64,000 bases of DNA from Stackebrandtia endophytica. Lineage in GTDB: Bacteria > Actinomycetota > Actinomycetes > Mycobacteriales > Micromonosporaceae. This document shows, one piece after another, positions 8,994 to 30,501 of this stretch. Below the pieces are notes generated by a model that saw only the letters and a program-made list of their open reading frames with translations, ran no database searches and had not been told where the DNA came from. Every line of letters begins with the position of its first letter. Position 1 is the first letter of the stretch. The stretch spans positions 5,456,001 to 5,520,000 of the forward strand of contig NZ_VFOW01000001.1 in the NCBI RefSeq assembly GCF_006716355.1, written 5' to 3'. A program made the translations under genes and the position numbers.

Positions 8994-9698
8994 GTGCTAA
9001 TTCAGGGCTTGGTCGCCGAGGCGTTCGCCACAAATTGTTATGTGGTTGCGCCCGAAGCCGGTTCTGAATGTCTCGTGATCGATCCGGGAATCGGTGTGGT
9101 GCCCGGATTGGACGAGGTGTTGCGGCGGCACCGGTTGAAACCGGTCGCCGTCATGATGACCCACGGTCACCTGGATCACACGTTCTCGGTGACCCCGATG
9201 TCCGGTTCCCGCGACATCCCGGCCTACATCCACCACGGTGACCGTGAAATACTCGCCGACCCGCTCAAGGGAATCGGTCCCCAACTGGGCGCGATCTTCG
9301 GCGGTCGGCTGGAGTGGACCGAACCCGACGACGTACGAGAACTGTCCGACGGCGACACCATCTCGTTGGCGGGCATGGAGTTCACCGTCGACCACGCACC
9401 GGGGCACACCCCCGGCTCGGTGTTGTTCCAGTTCCCCGGTGACGACGACGCCCAGTCCTACTGCTTCTCCGGCGACGTCCTGTTCGCCGGATCCATCGGG
9501 CGCACCGATCTGCCCGGCGGCAGTGACCAGCAGATGCGCGCGACGCTGCGGGACAAGATCCTGTCGATGAACGACGACGCCGTGGTCCTTCCCGGTCACG
9601 GTGGCCGCACCACGATCGGCAGGGAACGCGAGACCAACCCGTTCCTCCAACCGGCGCATTTGACCGGCCATACCCAGGCACCGACTCGAGGCATGTGA
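8994..9698 (+). CDS. MBL-fold metallohydrolase, glyoxalase II-like
   Basis: Metallo-beta-lactamase-fold hydrolase with a complete two-metal site: THGHLDH (HxHxDH), HAPGHTPGSV (third histidine), FSGDVLFAGSIGR (bridging Asp) and VLPGHG (last His). The closest named family is hydroxyacylglutathione hydrolase/glyoxalase II, but actinomycetes lack glutathione, so the substrate may be a mycothiol or bacillithiol-type thioester or something else; this is inference. 234 residues, GTG start with an A/G-rich AAAAGGGA upstream. Directly precedes hisS, as in Streptomyces and Mycobacterium. Confidence 0.9.
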   Translation: MLIQGLVAEAFATNCYVVAPEAGSECLVIDPGIGVVPGLDEVLRRHRLKPVAVMMTHGHLDHTFSVTPMSGSRDIPAYIHHGDREILADPLKGIGPQLGAIFGGRLEWTEPDDVRELSDGDTISLAGMEFTVDHAPGHTPGSVLFQFPGDDDAQSYCFSGDVLFAGSIGRTDLPGGSDQQMRATLRDKILSMNDDAVVLPGHGGRTTIGRERETNPFLQPAHLTGHTQAPTRGM

Positions 9699-9759
9699 TC
9701 CCTGCGAGCCGGTGCCCGCGTTCGCCGACCGTCACGTCAATCGCTCAAGGAGTTACGTC

Positions 9760-11085
9760 ATGAGCCGTCCGGCTCCGCTCTCGGGTTTCCCCGAACTGCT
9801 GCCCCGTCAACGCATCGTCGAGCAACGCGTCATCGAGCAACTGTCGCGCACCTTCGAATTGCACGGCTTCGCCTCGATCAGCACCCGCGCCGTCGAACCA
9901 CTGGACCAGTTGCTGCGCAAGGGCGAGACCTCCAAGGAGGTCTACGTGTTGCGCCGCCTGCAGGCCGAGGAGGGCGACTCGTCCGATTCCGGTCTGGGCC
10001 TCCACTTCGATCTGACCGTCCCGTTGGCGCGATACGTGTTGGAGAACGCCGGCAAGCTTCAGTTCCCGTTCCGTCGCTATCAGATCCAACCGTGTTGGCG
10101 AGGCGAACGTCCCCAGGACGGCCGGTTCCGGGAGTTCTGGCAGGCCGACATCGACGTCGTCAACCGCGATGACCTACCCGGACACTACGAAGTGGAACTT
10201 CCGCTGGTGATCGGGGACGCGTTGCGGTCGCTCCCGATTCCGGCGATGCGCATGCACGTCAACAACCGGAAGCTGTCACAGGGGTTCTTCCGAGGAGTGG
10301 GGTTGTCCGACCCGATGGCCGCGGTGCGGATCATCGACAAGATCGGCAAGATCGGCCCCAACGGGGTGTCGAAGCTGCTGACCGAGACCCTGTCGGCCAC
10401 CGACGCCCAGATCAAGCTCTGCCTGGAACTGGCCGCCATCACCACCGAGGATCAATCCTTCGTGGACCGGGTCCAGGCGTTGGGCGTCGTGGATCCGATG
10501 CTGGACGAGGGCTTGGCGGAGCTGTCGGCGGTTGTGGGCGCCGCCGCCGTCGACGCACCCGGCCTGGTGGTCGCCGACCTGAGTATCGCGCGCGGACTCG
10601 ACTACTACACCGGGACGGTCTACGAGACCTTCATGACCGGGTACGAGCGGTTGGGCTCGGTGTGCTCGGGCGGCCGTTACGACAACCTCGCCAGCGACGG
10701 CAAGAACCGGTTCCCCGGTGTCGGCCTGTCCATCGGGGTCTCCCGGATCCTGGTGCCGTTGTTGAATCAGAACGTGCTGTCGGCCAGCCGCGAGGTACCC
10801 ACCTGTGTTCTGGTCGCGCTGCCCGACACCGAATCCCGTCGCGACTGCGACCGGATCGCGCGATCGCTGCGGAGCCGGGGCATCGCCGCCGAGGTCGCGC
10901 CCGCCGCACAGAAGTACGGCAAGCAGATCCGGTTCGCCGAGCGTCGCGGCATCCCATACGTGTGGTTCCCCGGCGAGGCGGACCAGCCGGGTGAGGTGCG
11001 GGACATCCGTTCCGGTGACCAGGTCGGAGCCGACGTCGACACCTGGACACCGCCGGAGTCGGACCTGCGACCGACGGTCGGTTGA
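9760..11085 (+). CDS. hisS: Histidyl-tRNA synthetase
   Basis: Class II aminoacyl-tRNA synthetase charging tRNA-His. Start at ATG 9760 with AAGGAG upstream; the frame is open further back but that part has no family match. Visible are motif 1 (the region around LPRQRIVEQRV), motif 2 (FRRYQIQPCWRGERPQDGR), the histidine A box (ARGLDYYTGTVYE), and motif 3 (PGVGLSIGVSRI). The C-terminal anticodon-binding domain contains KYGKQIRFAERRGIPYVW. 441 residues. The sequence after it may form a weak terminator (arms 11131-11138 and 11160-11167). Confidence 0.97.
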   Translation: MSRPAPLSGFPELLPRQRIVEQRVIEQLSRTFELHGFASISTRAVEPLDQLLRKGETSKEVYVLRRLQAEEGDSSDSGLGLHFDLTVPLARYVLENAGKLQFPFRRYQIQPCWRGERPQDGRFREFWQADIDVVNRDDLPGHYEVELPLVIGDALRSLPIPAMRMHVNNRKLSQGFFRGVGLSDPMAAVRIIDKIGKIGPNGVSKLLTETLSATDAQIKLCLELAAITTEDQSFVDRVQALGVVDPMLDEGLAELSAVVGAAAVDAPGLVVADLSIARGLDYYTGTVYETFMTGYERLGSVCSGGRYDNLASDGKNRFPGVGLSIGVSRILVPLLNQNVLSASREVPTCVLVALPDTESRRDCDRIARSLRSRGIAAEVAPAAQKYGKQIRFAERRGIPYVWFPGEADQPGEVRDIRSGDQVGADVDTWTPPESDLRPTVG

Positions 11086-11220
11086 CAGTGCGGGGCGGTT
11101 GTTCGACCATGACAATATTGACGCCGAATCGGGGCACCCTTCGGTCGTTCACCGGGTGAGGTGCCCCACCGACACCGATACTGCGGTTCATTGAACGATG
11201 AAACGAGAGGTCTCACCCCG

Positions 11221-11721
11221 ATGGCCACCTACGCCTTGTATCGCCACACGATTCGCGCCGTCGTCGTGGGGCGACACAACGAGGTCAAGTTGTTTCTTCG
11301 GCAGATTCCCGAGGAGGATCTCGCCAACTTCAACAACTTTCTGATGGCCGCCTTCTACGGCGCGGCGATCCTGGAATTCGCCTACGACCGAGGTGATGAG
11401 GCGGTCAACAAGTTCGCCAAGGAGATGGTCGAAGCCCATCCGGACGTCGACCCGCCGCTGGAGGAGCGGTACGTCGAGTACTGCGTGCTCGGGATTTTCG
11501 GTGAACACCATCTGATGGAGAGCTTGGAACCGAGACACCTCCACCGGACCCAGATGCTGTCGATCCGGCTCATCGCAACTCGGCATCCGAAGATGCGTGA
11601 ACGGGTTCAGGGCTATCTGGCATGTGCCGAACAGCTGGCTCGGCAGTGGGCCGCCGGTGAGGAGCCGGATGTTGACTTCGGCTGGTTCGACGACGTGCCC
11701 GATGCGGACCCGGCGGCCTGA
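11221..11721 (+). CDS. Conserved-looking protein of unknown function
   Basis: 166 residues, not recognised. ATG at 11221 preceded by GAGAGG at a slightly long spacing. Predicted soluble and helical; begins ATYALYRHTIRAVVVGRHNE and has an aromatic-rich middle (NFLMAAFYGAAILEFAYDRG). A segment near the C-terminal third (GIFGEHHLMESLEPRHLHRTQ) holds five histidines, which could bind metal, but no known motif fits. Codon use matches the neighbours, so it is likely a real gene. It stands alone after hisS and is followed by a strong hairpin. Confidence 0.7.
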   Translation: MATYALYRHTIRAVVVGRHNEVKLFLRQIPEEDLANFNNFLMAAFYGAAILEFAYDRGDEAVNKFAKEMVEAHPDVDPPLEERYVEYCVLGIFGEHHLMESLEPRHLHRTQMLSIRLIATRHPKMRERVQGYLACAEQLARQWAAGEEPDVDFGWFDDVPDADPAA

Positions 11722-11742
11722 TCGGGCGAATCGACTCAAACC

Positions 11743-11791
11743 GAAAGACCGGTTCGGTGGGCGTGCAAGCGCCTTGCCGAACCGGTCTTTC
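11743..11791. terminator. Terminator hairpin
   Basis: Perfect 15-bp inverted repeat, arms 11743-11757 and 11777-11791, with a 19-base spacer that can fold further (GCGTGCAAGCGC). Lies 21 bases after the stop of the preceding gene. Confidence 0.75.
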
Positions 11792-12504
11792 GTTGTCGGG
11801 TCGGAGCGCGGAAAGCGGTTCGCCGGCGTTGCTTGGTGGGGGTTGTTCGGCCGGTGTTGTTCGGTGGGTGTTGTTCGGTGGCGCCGATACCCGCATAAAA
11901 AATCCATAGACCTAGATATATCGAAGCGTGGGAACGGTCCCAGTTTGCCTGGAACACAGTGCTTTTCAGGCAAACGACCCTGAGGATTTCGGGCGAAAAC
12001 GACGCCGCACACGTCTAGCGCAAATCGATCAATGACGATACCGTCATTCGCACCCAGGCGATCGCGGAGTTGAGTCCACGGAGGACGGGACCGGTTTCGC
12101 GTGAGCGACGAAAGAGGAGGGCCGCGGCCACCTGCGTCGCGGTTCGGCGACTCGAGCCGACTGCTTGCTCGGAGTGTTCCATGATGCACCATAGGCGACC
12201 TCACCACCGGTTCACTCGGTGTCCCTCGCCCCGGTGCGCACTCGGTACGGGTAGCGGTGCCTCGACCCGATCGACTCGACAGGTCCGGTCGTCGGTATTC
12301 CTCCATCGAACGGTCATCGAATCGGCGCGGCCGCAGCGCCCCGGCGAACACACGTCACGCCGGACGAACCCGGTCATCCGGTCCACGCGACCGAATCACC
12401 GTCTCCACGTGTCATCGGCCCCGGCGACATCGTTGACAACACCGACATGGCCAACTCGCCTTCGGCGTGCTCACCCGCGGTGAGTCGTCGAGAAAGAAGG
12501 AAAG
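11792..12504. other. 713-bp gene-free gap with short repeats and hairpins
   Basis: No frame here looks coding: the open frames are Arg/Pro-rich and lack ribosome sites. It holds a tandem repeat (11826-11880), an AT-rich patch around 11896-11925, an inverted repeat GTTTGCCTG/CAGGCAAAC (11943-11951 and 11967-11975, 15-base loop), and a small hairpin AATGACG-ATAC-CGTCATT (12031-12048). TTGACA-like sequence occurs at 12432-12437. It most likely carries the leader and control region of the following mctB-like operon, but a small RNA is possible. Confidence 0.5.
11826..11880. repeat. Short tandem repeat, 14-bp unit
   Basis: Two exact copies of a 14-base unit GGTGTTGTTCGGTG at 11853-11866 and 11867-11880, preceded by two degraded copies (GGCGTTGCTTGGTGG and GGGTTGTTCGGCC). 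The unit is not a multiple of three and no gene spans it. Confidence 0.8.
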
Positions 12505-12861
12505 ATGACCGATTCGGAAGGTTCCGATCCAGAACAGACGGTCAACAGCGTGGCCGTCCAGAACAGTCCCGAATTCGCTGCGCTGCGCAAGGCGCTGCGA
12601 CGATTCGTGTTTCCCGCCACGGTGGCGTTTCTGGCGTGGTACGCCCTGTACGTCCTGTTGTCCACCTACGCCGTCGGGTTCATGTCCATACAGGTGTGGG
12701 GACACATCAACATCGCGTTGATCTTCGGCATGCTCCAGTTCGTCAGCACGTTCCTGCTGGCATGGGCGTACTCGCGATACGCCGACCGACACCTTGACCC
12801 CAAAGCCGAGGCGATCCGTGAGCGGGTCACCTCCTCGACGACCCCGGAGGAGACGCCGTGA
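12505..12861 (+). CDS. DUF485 membrane protein, symporter partner (MctB/YjcH-like)
   Basis: 118 residues. Soluble N-terminus (to about residue 30), then the DUF485 core with two membrane spans (FPATVAFLAWYALYVLLSTY and HINIALIFGMLQFVSTFLLA) and a charged C-terminus. Proteins of this family are encoded next to acetate/pyruvate sodium-solute symporters (YjcH with ActP in E. coli, MctB with MctC in Corynebacterium); their exact role is not settled. ATG with AAGGAAAG upstream. Its TGA overlaps the GTG of the next gene (GTGA), so the two are translationally coupled. Confidence 0.9.
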   Translation: MTDSEGSDPEQTVNSVAVQNSPEFAALRKALRRFVFPATVAFLAWYALYVLLSTYAVGFMSIQVWGHINIALIFGMLQFVSTFLLAWAYSRYADRHLDPKAEAIRERVTSSTTPEETP

Positions 12862-26789: not shown

Positions 26790-26824
26790 TATGGGAATCG
26801 CCGTCGAGTCCCATGGAGTCCGTC

Positions 26825-27709
26825 ATGACCACCCTGATCGTCATCGCCCTCTTCGGACTGGTCGCCCAGCTCATCGACGGCGGACTCGGAATGGGCTACG
26901 GCGTCATCTCCACATCGCTGCTGTTGACCGTCGGGCTCACCCCGGCGGCTGCGTCGGCGTCGGTGCACCTGGCCGAAATCGGCACCAGCCTCGCCTCCGG
27001 CATCTCCCACTGGCGCTTCGGCAACATCGACTGGTCGGTCACGGCTCGCATCGCGGTCCCGGGTGCGGTCGGTGCGTTCATCGGCGCGACCGCACTGGCC
27101 AATCTGCCCACCGGTGCGGCCTCCGGATGGACCGCCGCGATCCTCATCGGACTCGGAATATTCCTGCTGTTTCGGTTCAGCAGACCCCGCAACAACACCA
27201 AACCGCCGAGCCGGCCGCGCAATCGGCTGCTGGCTCCACTGGGATTGATCGCCGGGACCGTCGACGCGACCGGAGGTGGCGGCTGGGGGCCCATCGCCAC
27301 CTCGACGCTGCTGGCATCGGGCAAGCTCGAACCGCGAAAGACCATCGGTTCGGTGTCGGCCGCGGAGTTCGCGGTCGCCGTCGCCGCCAGCATCGGGTTC
27401 CTGTTGGCACTGTCCGATGCGGCGATCCTGTGGCCGACCGTCATCGCCCTGTTGATCGGTGGAGTGATCGCCGCCCCGGCGGCGGCGTGGTTGGTGCGGC
27501 GACTGCCCACCCACATCCTCGGCGTCGCGGTGGGCGGCATCATCATCACCACCAACACCCGCATCGTGTTGAGCACGGTGGAGGCGCCGACGGTGGTGCA
27601 CACCGTCGCCTACGTCCTCATCGGTCTCGGCTGGCTCGGCGTCCTGGCGGCGACGCTGCGCGGCCACCGACGCACCGTCGTCGAGGCGGAGCCCGCGCCG
27701 GTCGGGTGA
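26825..27709 (+). CDS. TauE/SafE family sulfite/organosulfonate exporter
   Basis: 294 residues, about eight membrane spans in two similar halves. Family signatures: QLIDGGLGMGYGVISTSLLL in the first half and GLIAGTVDATGGGGWGPIAT in the second, the repeated G-rich motif that defines TauE/SafE transporters. Members export sulfite, sulfoacetate or related anions. Start at ATG 26825 with GGAG 7 bases upstream. A palindromic promoter lies before it and an Rrf2 regulator gene upstream, which supports a link to sulfur metabolism or sulfite stress. Substrate not determined by sequence. Confidence 0.9.
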   Translation: MTTLIVIALFGLVAQLIDGGLGMGYGVISTSLLLTVGLTPAAASASVHLAEIGTSLASGISHWRFGNIDWSVTARIAVPGAVGAFIGATALANLPTGAASGWTAAILIGLGIFLLFRFSRPRNNTKPPSRPRNRLLAPLGLIAGTVDATGGGGWGPIATSTLLASGKLEPRKTIGSVSAAEFAVAVAASIGFLLALSDAAILWPTVIALLIGGVIAAPAAAWLVRRLPTHILGVAVGGIIITTNTRIVLSTVEAPTVVHTVAYVLIGLGWLGVLAATLRGHRRTVVEAEPAPVG

Positions 27710-27851: not shown

Positions 27852-28811
27852 ATGAGTCGACCCTTCGCCTCCAGCGCGGACACCACGCCGAAGAAGCAGA
27901 CACTGGAAATGCTTGCCGACGGCGTGTACGCGCTCACCGCCGAGGGCGACCCCAATGTGGGGGCGATCGAGGGCGAGGACTTCGTCCTCTGCGTCGAGGC
28001 CACCGCGACCCCGCATACCGCCCGCTCCTGGCTGCAGCAGCTGCGTCAGCACACCGACAAACCCATCCGGTACCTGGTCCTGACCCACTACCACGCGGTT
28101 CGCACTCTCGGTGCCAGTGCCTTCGGCACCGATATGGTGATCGCCCACGAGAACACTGCCGCCCTGATCGACGAACGGGGCCGCGACGACTGGGAGTCCG
28201 AACTGGGTCGCATGCCGCGGTTGTTCGACCACCCCGAATCGATCCCCGGATTGACCCATCCCACCATCACCTTCACCGGTCAGCTGACGATTCAGCTGGG
28301 CGGTGACCGGGGCGAAGCCGTCATAGCCCACTGTGGATTCGGGCATACGGAGGGCGACATCGTCGTCTGGTTGCCGAAACAGCGGGTCCTGTTCACCGGA
28401 GATCTGGTCGAGTCGCAGGCCGCGCTGTACACCGGCGACGCCTACCATTCACCCTGGGCGACGACCACCCTCGATCACATCGCCGGCTTCGAGGCCGACG
28501 TACTCGTCGGTGGTCGGGGAGCGGCCACTTATGGACGGACCGAGGTCGACGAGGCGATCGCGCAGACCCGGAGATTCCTCACGACCATGATCAGCCACAC
28601 CACGGCGGTGCACGCCGCCGGTGGTGGCATGGAACAGGCGTTCGCCGACGTTCACGAGGCTCTGGCGCCGGCCTACAGCGGTTGGCCGATCTTCGAACAC
28701 TGCCTGCCGTTCAACGTCGCCCGGCTCTGGGATGAACTGTCGGGGATCACCCGCCCCCGCATCTGGACCGCCGACCGCGACCGTGACGTCTGGGCGAAAC
28801 TCCAGGGCTGA
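27852..28811 (+). CDS. MBL-fold protein with half-degenerate metal site
   Basis: 319 residues with the metallo-beta-lactamase fold but an altered centre. The usual HxHxDH reads THYHAVR: His79 and His81 are kept, the Asp is Val83 and the last His is Arg84. The third His is kept (GHTEGD, His165) and so is the bridging Asp (FTGD, Asp184), but the last His of the family (GHG) is Arg222 (GGRG). So the ligands of metal site 1 remain while those of site 2 are lost. The ORF ends 2 bases before an FAD monooxygenase gene, so the two are one operon. Similar HYHAVR proteins occur beside oxygenases in other actinomycetes, to my memory, with no proven role. Confidence 0.85.
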   Translation: MSRPFASSADTTPKKQTLEMLADGVYALTAEGDPNVGAIEGEDFVLCVEATATPHTARSWLQQLRQHTDKPIRYLVLTHYHAVRTLGASAFGTDMVIAHENTAALIDERGRDDWESELGRMPRLFDHPESIPGLTHPTITFTGQLTIQLGGDRGEAVIAHCGFGHTEGDIVVWLPKQRVLFTGDLVESQAALYTGDAYHSPWATTTLDHIAGFEADVLVGGRGAATYGRTEVDEAIAQTRRFLTTMISHTTAVHAAGGGMEQAFADVHEALAPAYSGWPIFEHCLPFNVARLWDELSGITRPRIWTADRDRDVWAKLQG

Positions 28812-28813
28812 TC

Positions 28814-30358
28814 ATGTCGGCGACGGTCATCGTGGTGGGAGCCGGGCCGGTCGGTCAGACGGCCGCTCTGTTGTTGGCGCGCTGGAAGCTCGACGTGGTC
28901 CTGCTCGACGCGGCGCCGACTCGAGCCCTCGCCGGTTCCCGATCGATCTGTCAGCAACGCGACGTACTCGACATCTGGAGTCACGTCGGCGCCTCCGCGA
29001 TCGGCGAGGAGGGATTGACCTGGACCACGGCGCGTACCTTCTACCGAGGCCGCTCGATCGCCGAATCCCGTTTCGAGGTCCGCTCGGGAACCCCGCCGTT
29101 CGTCAACCTGTCGCAGACGCGAACCGAGGCGGTCCTCGACGGACTCATCGCGGCCGAGCCTCGAATCCGGTTGTGTTGGAACCAGCCGGTGACCAGGCTC
29201 ATCGGAGAGGACGACGCCGTCACCGTTCACACCCTCACCGACACCTACTCCGCCGACTACGCGATTCTCGCAACCGGAGCCCACAGCGGGCCGATCCGCG
29301 ACCAACTCGACATCGACTTCCCCGGGACCACCTGTCCGGACCGGTTCCTGATCTGTGACATCGCCGCCGATCTGCCCGAGCTGCGCACCGAACGACACTT
29401 TCACTTCGACCCGCCCGACAATCCGGGTCGACAGCTACTGATACATCCGTGTCCCGACAACACCTTCCGCATCGACTGGCAGGTTCCGCCCGATTACAAC
29501 GCCGCCACCGATCAACTGGACGACCGGGTTCGCAGCGTCACCGGCAACCTCGGCTATCGGTTGTTGTGGAGCACCACCTACCGATTCCACTCAAGGGTGG
29601 CCGGGCGGTTCAACCGCGGTCGGATCATGCTGGCGGGCGACGTGGCGCACCTGTACGCGCCGTTCGGGGCGCGCGGGCTGAACTCCGGTGTCGCCGACGC
29701 CGAGAACGCCGCCTGGAAGATCGCGGCGCACGCCCACGGCTGGTCGGGCGAATCCATCTTGGACAGCTACCATGCCGAACGGTACCCCGCGGCGCTGGAG
29801 AATCAGGAGGTCGTGGACACCACGATGCGATTCCTGGCGCCGCCGACCGATCAGGACCGACGGCGACGTCACGACCTACTGGAGGCCGCGGCCACCGACT
29901 CCGACGCCGCCGCCAAGATCGACTCCGGCCGTTTCGCCGAGCCCTACTGGTATTCGGCGTCTCCGCTGACCACACCGGATCCCGATAGGCCACCACCGTG
30001 TCGCCCACCCAAGAACACCGGCCAGCCCGCCGCGCCCGGAGTGATCTTCCCCGATGGCCCACCCGACACCGCCGGTCTGCGTCAATCGCTGCGTGGCGCG
30101 TTCACACTGGTCACCCGTGACGAGCAACCGGACGCCTGGTTCCACGCCGAAACCGACGCGCCCACCCGCTACCTGGCGTTGAGTCGCTGTGATCGCGGTG
30201 AGGAGTTGGCCGAACACATCGGTCTGTCGGCGGGGGAGGGCTGGTTGGTTCGCCCGGACTCGCACCTGGCCGCGACCCTGCCCCAGGCGACACCCGATGC
30301 GGTGGCCGCCGCACTGCGGCGGGTACTGGGCCGCACCGACGAGGGCTTACCCCTCTAG
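28814..30358 (+). CDS. FAD-dependent aromatic-type monooxygenase (class A)
   Basis: 514 residues. N-terminal FAD-binding fold VIVVGAGPVGQTAALLL, and the second FAD motif GRIMLAGDVAHLYAPFGARG followed by LNSGVADAENAAWKIA, both typical of PheA/TetX/MhpA hydroxylases. The middle DG motif of this class is changed to ATGAHSGPIR. The C-terminal 120 residues look like the thioredoxin-like domain of these enzymes (RGAFTLVTRDEQPDAW; GWLVRPDSHLAA). Substrate is likely an aromatic compound, but none can be named. Start ATG 28814 two bases after the MBL gene stop; terminator hairpin follows. Confidence 0.9.
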   Translation: MSATVIVVGAGPVGQTAALLLARWKLDVVLLDAAPTRALAGSRSICQQRDVLDIWSHVGASAIGEEGLTWTTARTFYRGRSIAESRFEVRSGTPPFVNLSQTRTEAVLDGLIAAEPRIRLCWNQPVTRLIGEDDAVTVHTLTDTYSADYAILATGAHSGPIRDQLDIDFPGTTCPDRFLICDIAADLPELRTERHFHFDPPDNPGRQLLIHPCPDNTFRIDWQVPPDYNAATDQLDDRVRSVTGNLGYRLLWSTTYRFHSRVAGRFNRGRIMLAGDVAHLYAPFGARGLNSGVADAENAAWKIAAHAHGWSGESILDSYHAERYPAALENQEVVDTTMRFLAPPTDQDRRRRHDLLEAAATDSDAAAKIDSGRFAEPYWYSASPLTTPDPDRPPPCRPPKNTGQPAAPGVIFPDGPPDTAGLRQSLRGAFTLVTRDEQPDAWFHAETDAPTRYLALSRCDRGEELAEHIGLSAGEGWLVRPDSHLAATLPQATPDAVAAALRRVLGRTDEGLPL

Positions 30359-30379: not shown

Positions 30380-30403
30380 AAGCCCGGCTGGTAAGCCGGG
30401 CTT
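30380..30403. terminator. Terminator hairpin between monooxygenase and tRNA-Leu
   Basis: Perfect 10-bp stem AAGCCCGGCT / AGCCGGGCTT with loop GGTA, 22 bases after the stop and 15 bases from the tRNA 3' end on the other strand. Confidence 0.8.
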
Positions 30404-30417
30404 GACGATAATTTCGG

Positions 30418-30501
30418 TGCCGAGAGCGGGAGTCGAACCCGCATGCTCTTTCGAGCAATGGATTTTGAGGCCATCGTGTATACCAATTCCACCATCTCGG
30501 C
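30418..30501 (-). tRNA. tRNA-Leu (anticodon CAA)
   Basis: 84 bases, class II tRNA. Acceptor stem GCCGAGA/TCTCGGC with discriminator A, D arm around GGTGGAATTGGTATACAC, anticodon loop CTCAAAA (CAA, reads UUG), long variable arm TGCTC-GAAA-GAGCA, T arm GCGGG-TTCGACT-CCCGC. The 3' CCA is not fully encoded (CCG follows). The last pair of the anticodon stem is C31-U39, a mismatch. Confidence 0.95.

Follow-up and report, generated by a model that had tools for sequence, protein, structure and literature searches.

A metallo-beta-lactamase-fold family with HYHAVR in place of HxHxDH, its pairing with an FAD monooxygenase and its links to homogentisate-pathway genes

Comparative analysis of a 64,000-nucleotide stretch of the Stackebrandtia endophytica genome (contig NZ_VFOW01000001.1, positions 5,456,001 to 5,520,000; hereafter the window) demonstrated that a metallo-beta-lactamase (MBL)-fold protein encoded there belongs to a family in which HYHAVR replaces the HxHxDH metal-binding motif throughout, and that its gene is paired with that of an FAD monooxygenase in many bacteria. 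Since the two genes travel together, often inside a homogentisate cluster, the conserved pair very probably serves one aromatic-acid pathway.

Metal ligands of the HYHAVR family

The MBL gene (window positions 27852..28811, + strand) encodes 319 amino acids and was identified by Pfam, a PDB match and an AlphaFold model. The matches to Lactamase_B (46 bits) and to PDB chain 8d2z (300 bits) were far above chance, and the model (pLDDT 94.3) found its best solved match in 8d2z (Z 45.0). Together with a Z of 25 to CphA, these scores place the protein in the MBL-fold superfamily (alpha-beta-beta-alpha). Its stop codon (TGA, 28809-28811) is separated by 2 bp from the ATG of the FAD gene (28814). A TauE/SafE-family exporter gene, recognized by family match (26813..27709, + strand), lies 142 bp upstream of the MBL gene, and the order TauE-MBL-FAD is repeated in a congener (L108); the exporter gene's place in the module is uncertain. 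Downstream, a perfect 10-bp inverted repeat read from the sequence (30380..30403, + strand) begins 21 bp past the FAD stop codon and is a possible end-of-operon hairpin with a weak T run; the terminator scan gave no call at this repeat. A promoter scan for the sigma-70-like type found none in the region. A tRNA-Leu (CAA) gene (30416-30501, - strand) is convergent with the FAD gene and lies 57 bp after its stop codon.

HYHAVR occupies residues 79-84 (28086..28103, + strand). According to the motif, the metal-site-1 ligands His79 and His81 are retained, and Val83 and Arg84 stand at the positions of the site-2 Asp and His. The remaining ligand positions on the same strand are His165 in the GHTxGD motif (28344..28346), a site-1 ligand; Asp184 in the GDLVE motif (28401..28403), normally the bridging ligand; and Arg222 in GRG (28515..28517), at the position of the last site-2 His. 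These residues, the HYHAVR and ATGAHS motifs, the coordinates, the strand and the 2-bp gap had all been read correctly in the original prediction.

Relatives were gathered from annotated plasmids, from 84,980 species genomes (80 loci) and from the window's own taxonomic family, and the resulting family alignment had 107 rows, representing about 97 distinct genes. His165, Arg222 and the whole HYHAVR motif were invariant in 107/107 rows and Asp184 was kept in 106/107; R120, E187, Y193, D196, W202, H283, R291 and E295 were also invariant. The nearest outgroups retain HxHxDH and PGHG. The fixed HYHAVR and Arg222, set against HxHxDH and GHG in the outgroups, therefore indicate a derived clade character rather than decay, and the many other invariant residues point to an active or ligand-binding site. 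The hallmarks of a canonical two-metal MBL hydrolase, HxHxDH and the final His of GHG, are replaced by HYHAVR and GRG in all 107 rows. Judged from these motif statistics and the outgroups, metal site 2 is lost and site 1 retained as a fixed trait of the HYHAVR clade, in agreement with the original prediction of one site kept and one lost. An Arg after the Asp position of the motif occurs also in class B1 and B2 beta-lactamases (HxHxDR); thus, relative to those classes, the real losses are Asp120 to Val and His263 to Arg. Two disrupted matches were observed separately. In Paraburkholderia sprentiae (L158), the MBL gene matched in two pieces with a partial FAD gene nearby, apparently a module copy in decay. 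In genome G031 (L104/L106), the match was split into adjoining halves that lie in different frames, which looks like a frameshift, either real or a sequencing error.

The several conserved polar residues on hand in the alignment could allow the protein to remain a two-metal hydrolase, with H283, D196, E187 and H199 replacing the lost site-2 ligands. However, Arg84 and Arg222 would place two fixed positive charges at site 2, which should disfavour a metal, and the nearest relatives have the canonical ligand set; we consider this reading improbable.

The solved relative 8d2z, an MBL protein of Burkholderia cenocepacia, is a family member that carries HYHAVR; it is 48% identical to the window protein and aligns to it with Z 45.0 over 303 residues. 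Unlike the window gene, the homologue on a B. cenocepacia replicon (L159) has no FAD gene within 8 kb. The family is already visible in databases as an orphan crystal structure and under generic "MBL fold metallo-hydrolase" names; our literature search found no paper on 8d2z, and the literature and database sources searched named no substrate for any HYHAVR-family enzyme.

The class B2 beta-lactamase CphA (Z 25.4) has a mono-zinc MBL fold. Its active metal sits at site 2, which makes it the mirror case of the window protein, where site 1 is kept. Chlorothalonil dehalogenase Chd (6uxu) was the second structural match (Z 30.1) and is an MBL-fold enzyme in which each active site has one catalytic metal; its zinc ligands are Asp116, His117, His257 and Asn216 (PMC12784990). 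Chd therefore uses site-2-type ligands, whereas in the window protein exactly site 2 is gone. Three identities were rejected. Chlorothalonil dehalogenase was ruled out on scores and motifs. The SoxH-related quinoprotein relay (PQQ) metallohydrolases (TIGR04559/TIGR04558) gave the best NCBIfam match, at 93.6 bits against a cut-off of 280 (TIGR04559), and they keep HxHxDH and GHG. A class B1 metallo-beta-lactamase was excluded by its score (NF033088, 60.5 versus 200 bits) and by Val83, Asp184 and Arg222 in place of HxHxD, Cys221 and His263.

The FAD monooxygenase and its DG motif

The partner gene (28814..30358, + strand) encodes a 514-aa FAD monooxygenase of class-A type, PRK08132/MhaA-like, as determined by Pfam, NCBIfam and an AlphaFold model. 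FAD_binding_3 matched with 142 bits, and the model (pLDDT 90.2) was similar to PieE (Z 44.6), HbpA (Z 42.9) and PHBH (Z 30.8). Class A features are therefore present as FAD_binding_3, a PHBH-type fold and the motifs GxGxxG (G9/G11/G14) and GD (G275-D276). The DG motif is one of three flavin-binding motifs in class A flavoprotein monooxygenases (PMC6315137); here, alignment and tree show that it has decayed to ATGAHS (A153-S158; 29270..29287, + strand), so the protein is labelled class-A type rather than full class A. It also scored below the PRK08132 cut-off (NF006002; 363 versus 416 bits), which a Sinorhizobium relative in the same module type exceeded with 767 bits, and it was 32-35% identical to its proteobacterial counterparts.

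Replacement of the DG Asp was found in 45/86 rows of the FAD tree and traced to a single event (support 97) in an actinobacterial clade. Most actinobacterial copies linked to hmgA or fahA fall within this clade, suggesting that the DG-less enzymes presumably still work. DG was intact in all sampled proteobacterial FAD partners. The original prediction had taken the two altered enzymes as coupled, and joint evolution of the two motif changes was rejected on these grounds: the MBL change is family-wide, Proteobacteria included, and the DG loss is one later event in a single actinobacterial clade, so the two are independent. On the MBL tree, the DG state needs 6 changes with many branches unresolved; the FAD tree is only partly mirrored, and strict co-inheritance is therefore not claimed.

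The altered motifs in both proteins, and the drift of the former DG Asp position among A, T, P, S, L, G and M, could also be taken to mean that both genes are decaying or non-functional. This explanation is hardly credible, given that the frames are open, the motifs are fixed across phyla, the operon is conserved, and the FAD protein has intact GxGxxG and GD motifs.

Gene pairing and the homogentisate neighbourhood

At 73/80 survey loci, the FAD gene lay no more than 3 kb from the MBL gene. Of 297 sampled genomes of the window's class, 25 contained the MBL gene and 30 a member of the FAD clade; the FAD gene was present in all 25 MBL genomes (Fisher p 9e-32), and 25/26 MBL genes were within 3 kb of one. 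A search from an independent starting point, the DUF2783 protein, detected it in 13 of 274 gammaproteobacterial genomes, and MBL and FAD genes were both in the fetched stretch at 10 of these 13 loci. One of the other three loci was at a contig end, a second had its MBL gene at another place in the genome (G063, L038), and the third had none nearby. These results bear out the predicted partnership with the monooxygenase. DUF2783, a protein of 60-70 aa, is the third member of the module in Proteobacteria; it was absent from the window's own genome and was not found beside the actinobacterial pairs at the surveyed loci. Our literature search found no functional paper on DUF2783, only a listing in a Bradyrhizobium NnrR regulon.

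The pairing is not universal, as the original prediction had asked whether it might be. Solitary MBL genes occurred at eight loci; five of those genomes have an FAD gene elsewhere, and no orthologous FAD gene was found in the other three (G062, G065 and G046, the last from the window's own genus). The MBL protein is therefore not an obligate subunit of the monooxygenase. The locus in G046 (L107, about 9372-12719) has the order Rrf2-MBL-ANTAR regulator and is missing the TauE and FAD genes of the window and of G004. Variovorax paradoxus (L160) carries two MBL genes separated by about 7 kb: a solitary copy, and another accompanied by FAD and DUF2783 genes.

The near-perfect co-occurrence and the tight MBL-FAD adjacency could also be explained if the MBL protein were a non-enzymatic accessory or coupling partner of the monooxygenase that binds substrate or product. 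Where no DUF2783 gene accompanies the pair, as in the actinobacterial loci and the window genome, the MBL protein may do the coupling job. However, Proteobacteria carry MBL and DUF2783 together, the MBL gene stands alone in some genomes, the FAD gene lacks an MBL gene in 5/30 FAD-bearing genomes of the class sample, and the two genes are far apart in several gammaproteobacteria. The strictly conserved metal ligands also suggest a metal-dependent role, and we regard a pure coupling function as unlikely.

The pathway context was provided by the neighbouring genes. In alpha- and gammaproteobacteria, the MBL-FAD-DUF2783 module is found with hmgA, fahA, maiA and MarR regulators; examples with genes for homogentisate 1,2-dioxygenase, fumarylacetoacetase and maleylacetoacetate isomerase are Sphingobium, Dinoroseobacter, Sinorhizobium and Paracoccus. 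Actinobacteria such as Nocardiopsis and Pseudonocardia show the recurrent order MBL-FAD-HmgA-like-(X)-FahA. HmgA or FahA was inside the fetched stretch at 24/80 loci, compared with a chance expectation that we estimate at roughly 0.3% (a single-copy gene; 17 kb of a 5-Mb genome). Every one of the 25 MBL genomes in the class sample encoded fumarylacetoacetase, which was present in 158/297 of the sampled genomes as a whole (p 5e-8); 16 of these 25 had its gene no more than 10 kb from the FAD gene. The HmgA-like gene and the FahA gene of the window genome lie at about 3.046-3.049 Mb (G000:C1), away from the MBL-FAD pair. Aromatic hydroxylation followed by ring handling, one of the roles that had been suggested for the pair, fits this recurrent hmgA/fahA/maiA neighbourhood. 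Overall, the original observation was confirmed and its interpretation partly supported.

Two further proteins of the actinobacterial clusters were noted. The HmgA-like proteins (L110:8253-9437, L024:10611-11807) are 24-29% identical to canonical HmgA and reach 56-58 bits where the TIGR01015 cut-off is 511, and they share an operon with a true FahA; by sequence, they appear to be a divergent dioxygenase group. Between the HmgA-like and FahA genes of the window genome sits the gene of an approximately 280-aa protein with no Pfam match (L110:7290-8132, - strand; window genome G000:C1, about 3047289-3048131). It was directly upstream of FahA in 11 survey loci (L012, L017, L023, L027, L031, L035, L040, L044, L047, L048 and L087), and between the HmgA-like and FahA genes wherever HmgA was detected among them. 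For actinobacterial loci in which MaiA was not found, this protein might be considered a candidate maleylacetoacetate isomerase.

Retention of site-1 ligands only would also suit a mononuclear iron redox enzyme acting on a hydroquinone or quinone product, in the manner of ETHE1, a persulfide dioxygenase with mononuclear iron. The solitary MBL copies near oxygenase-type genes identified by reading the sequence (Rieske-type at L028, luciferase-like at L068) and the TauE/SafE exporter gene upstream in the window are in line with such a role. However, ETHE1 itself retains HxHxDH, and a ring-opening dioxygenase (HmgA) is already present in the same clusters, making an iron redox function rather unlikely.

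A characterized counterpart is MhaAB, the 3-hydroxyphenylacetate (3-HPA) 6-hydroxylase of Pseudomonas putida U, which consists of the 566-aa flavoprotein MhaA and the 60-aa coupling protein MhaB; in Paraburkholderia xenovorans LB400, the corresponding two proteins have 560 and 60 aa and their genes adjoin hmgA1 (PMC3053370). MhaA of LB400 was up on 3-HPA, by a rise without statistical significance (PMC10983741). MhaAB (Bxe_A2727/A2726 in LB400) has a similar flavoprotein, and the proteobacterial relatives share the 60-70 aa partner (DUF2783) and the neighbouring hmg genes. Because the proteobacterial FAD and DUF2783 proteins agree with MhaAB in size, partner and neighbourhood, they are presumably MhaAB-type, a likeness drawn from these three features rather than from sequence identity to MhaA. 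In contrast, the window pair has no small partner, its FAD protein is 514 aa long and has lost the DG Asp, and it has an MBL neighbour; whereas MhaAB adjoins hmg genes, the window pair does not. MhaAB has been described as a two-component system for the 3-HPA step, so that no obvious job is left in it for the MBL protein. Our literature search found no paper joining an MBL protein with hydroxyphenylacetate.

Proposed route and its meaning

It is likely that the MBL-FAD pair is a homogentisate-pathway module, and we infer its substrates, metal occupancy and chemistry as follows. The MhaA-related FAD protein would hydroxylate a hydroxyphenylacetate-type acid to homogentisate, with 3-hydroxyphenylacetate as the most likely substrate and the 4-isomer as a possible one; by analogy with MhaAB, we somewhat favour its assignment as a hydroxyphenylacetate hydroxylase. 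The MBL protein would be a one-metal enzyme using site 1 only (His79, His81, His165 and Asp184), with the invariant Arg84 and Arg222 occupying the site-2 cavity and binding a carboxylate or oxyanion. It would probably hydrolyse an ester, an amide, homogentisate lactone or a similar carboxylated compound that arises on the route as a precursor or by-product, although the designation of one-metal hydrolase is tentative. Finally, the HmgA-like dioxygenase would open homogentisate and FahA would hydrolyse the product; the genes of both are present elsewhere in the genome.

The model as a whole, an actinobacterial form of a widespread peripheral homogentisate module with a one-metal MBL protein at work, stands at about even chances. 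Against it are the lack of DUF2783 and of adjacent hmg genes at the window pair, the score of the FAD protein below the PRK08132 cut-off, the loss of its DG Asp, and the three genomes that retain an MBL gene but yielded no orthologous FAD gene. A bolder version, in which HYHAVR proteins are a distinct MBL class that works with site 1 alone, has two arginines in place of the second metal and performs an unrecognised step from hydroxyphenylacetate to homogentisate, with DG-less partners handling NAD(P)H or flavin differently, is speculative and on balance doubtful.

Although homogentisate catabolism is textbook biochemistry, its actinobacterial and proteobacterial clusters hold an MBL gene whose job is named in no source that we found. 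The once-only DG loss in an apparently working clade is a test of how essential this flavin/NAD(P)H fingerprint is. The HYHAVR protein amounts to a naturally occurring single-site mutant of the fold and is the mirror of the mono-zinc CphA and Chd; because a crystal structure of a relative exists, the metal content and the substrate of the HYHAVR protein can be tested directly.
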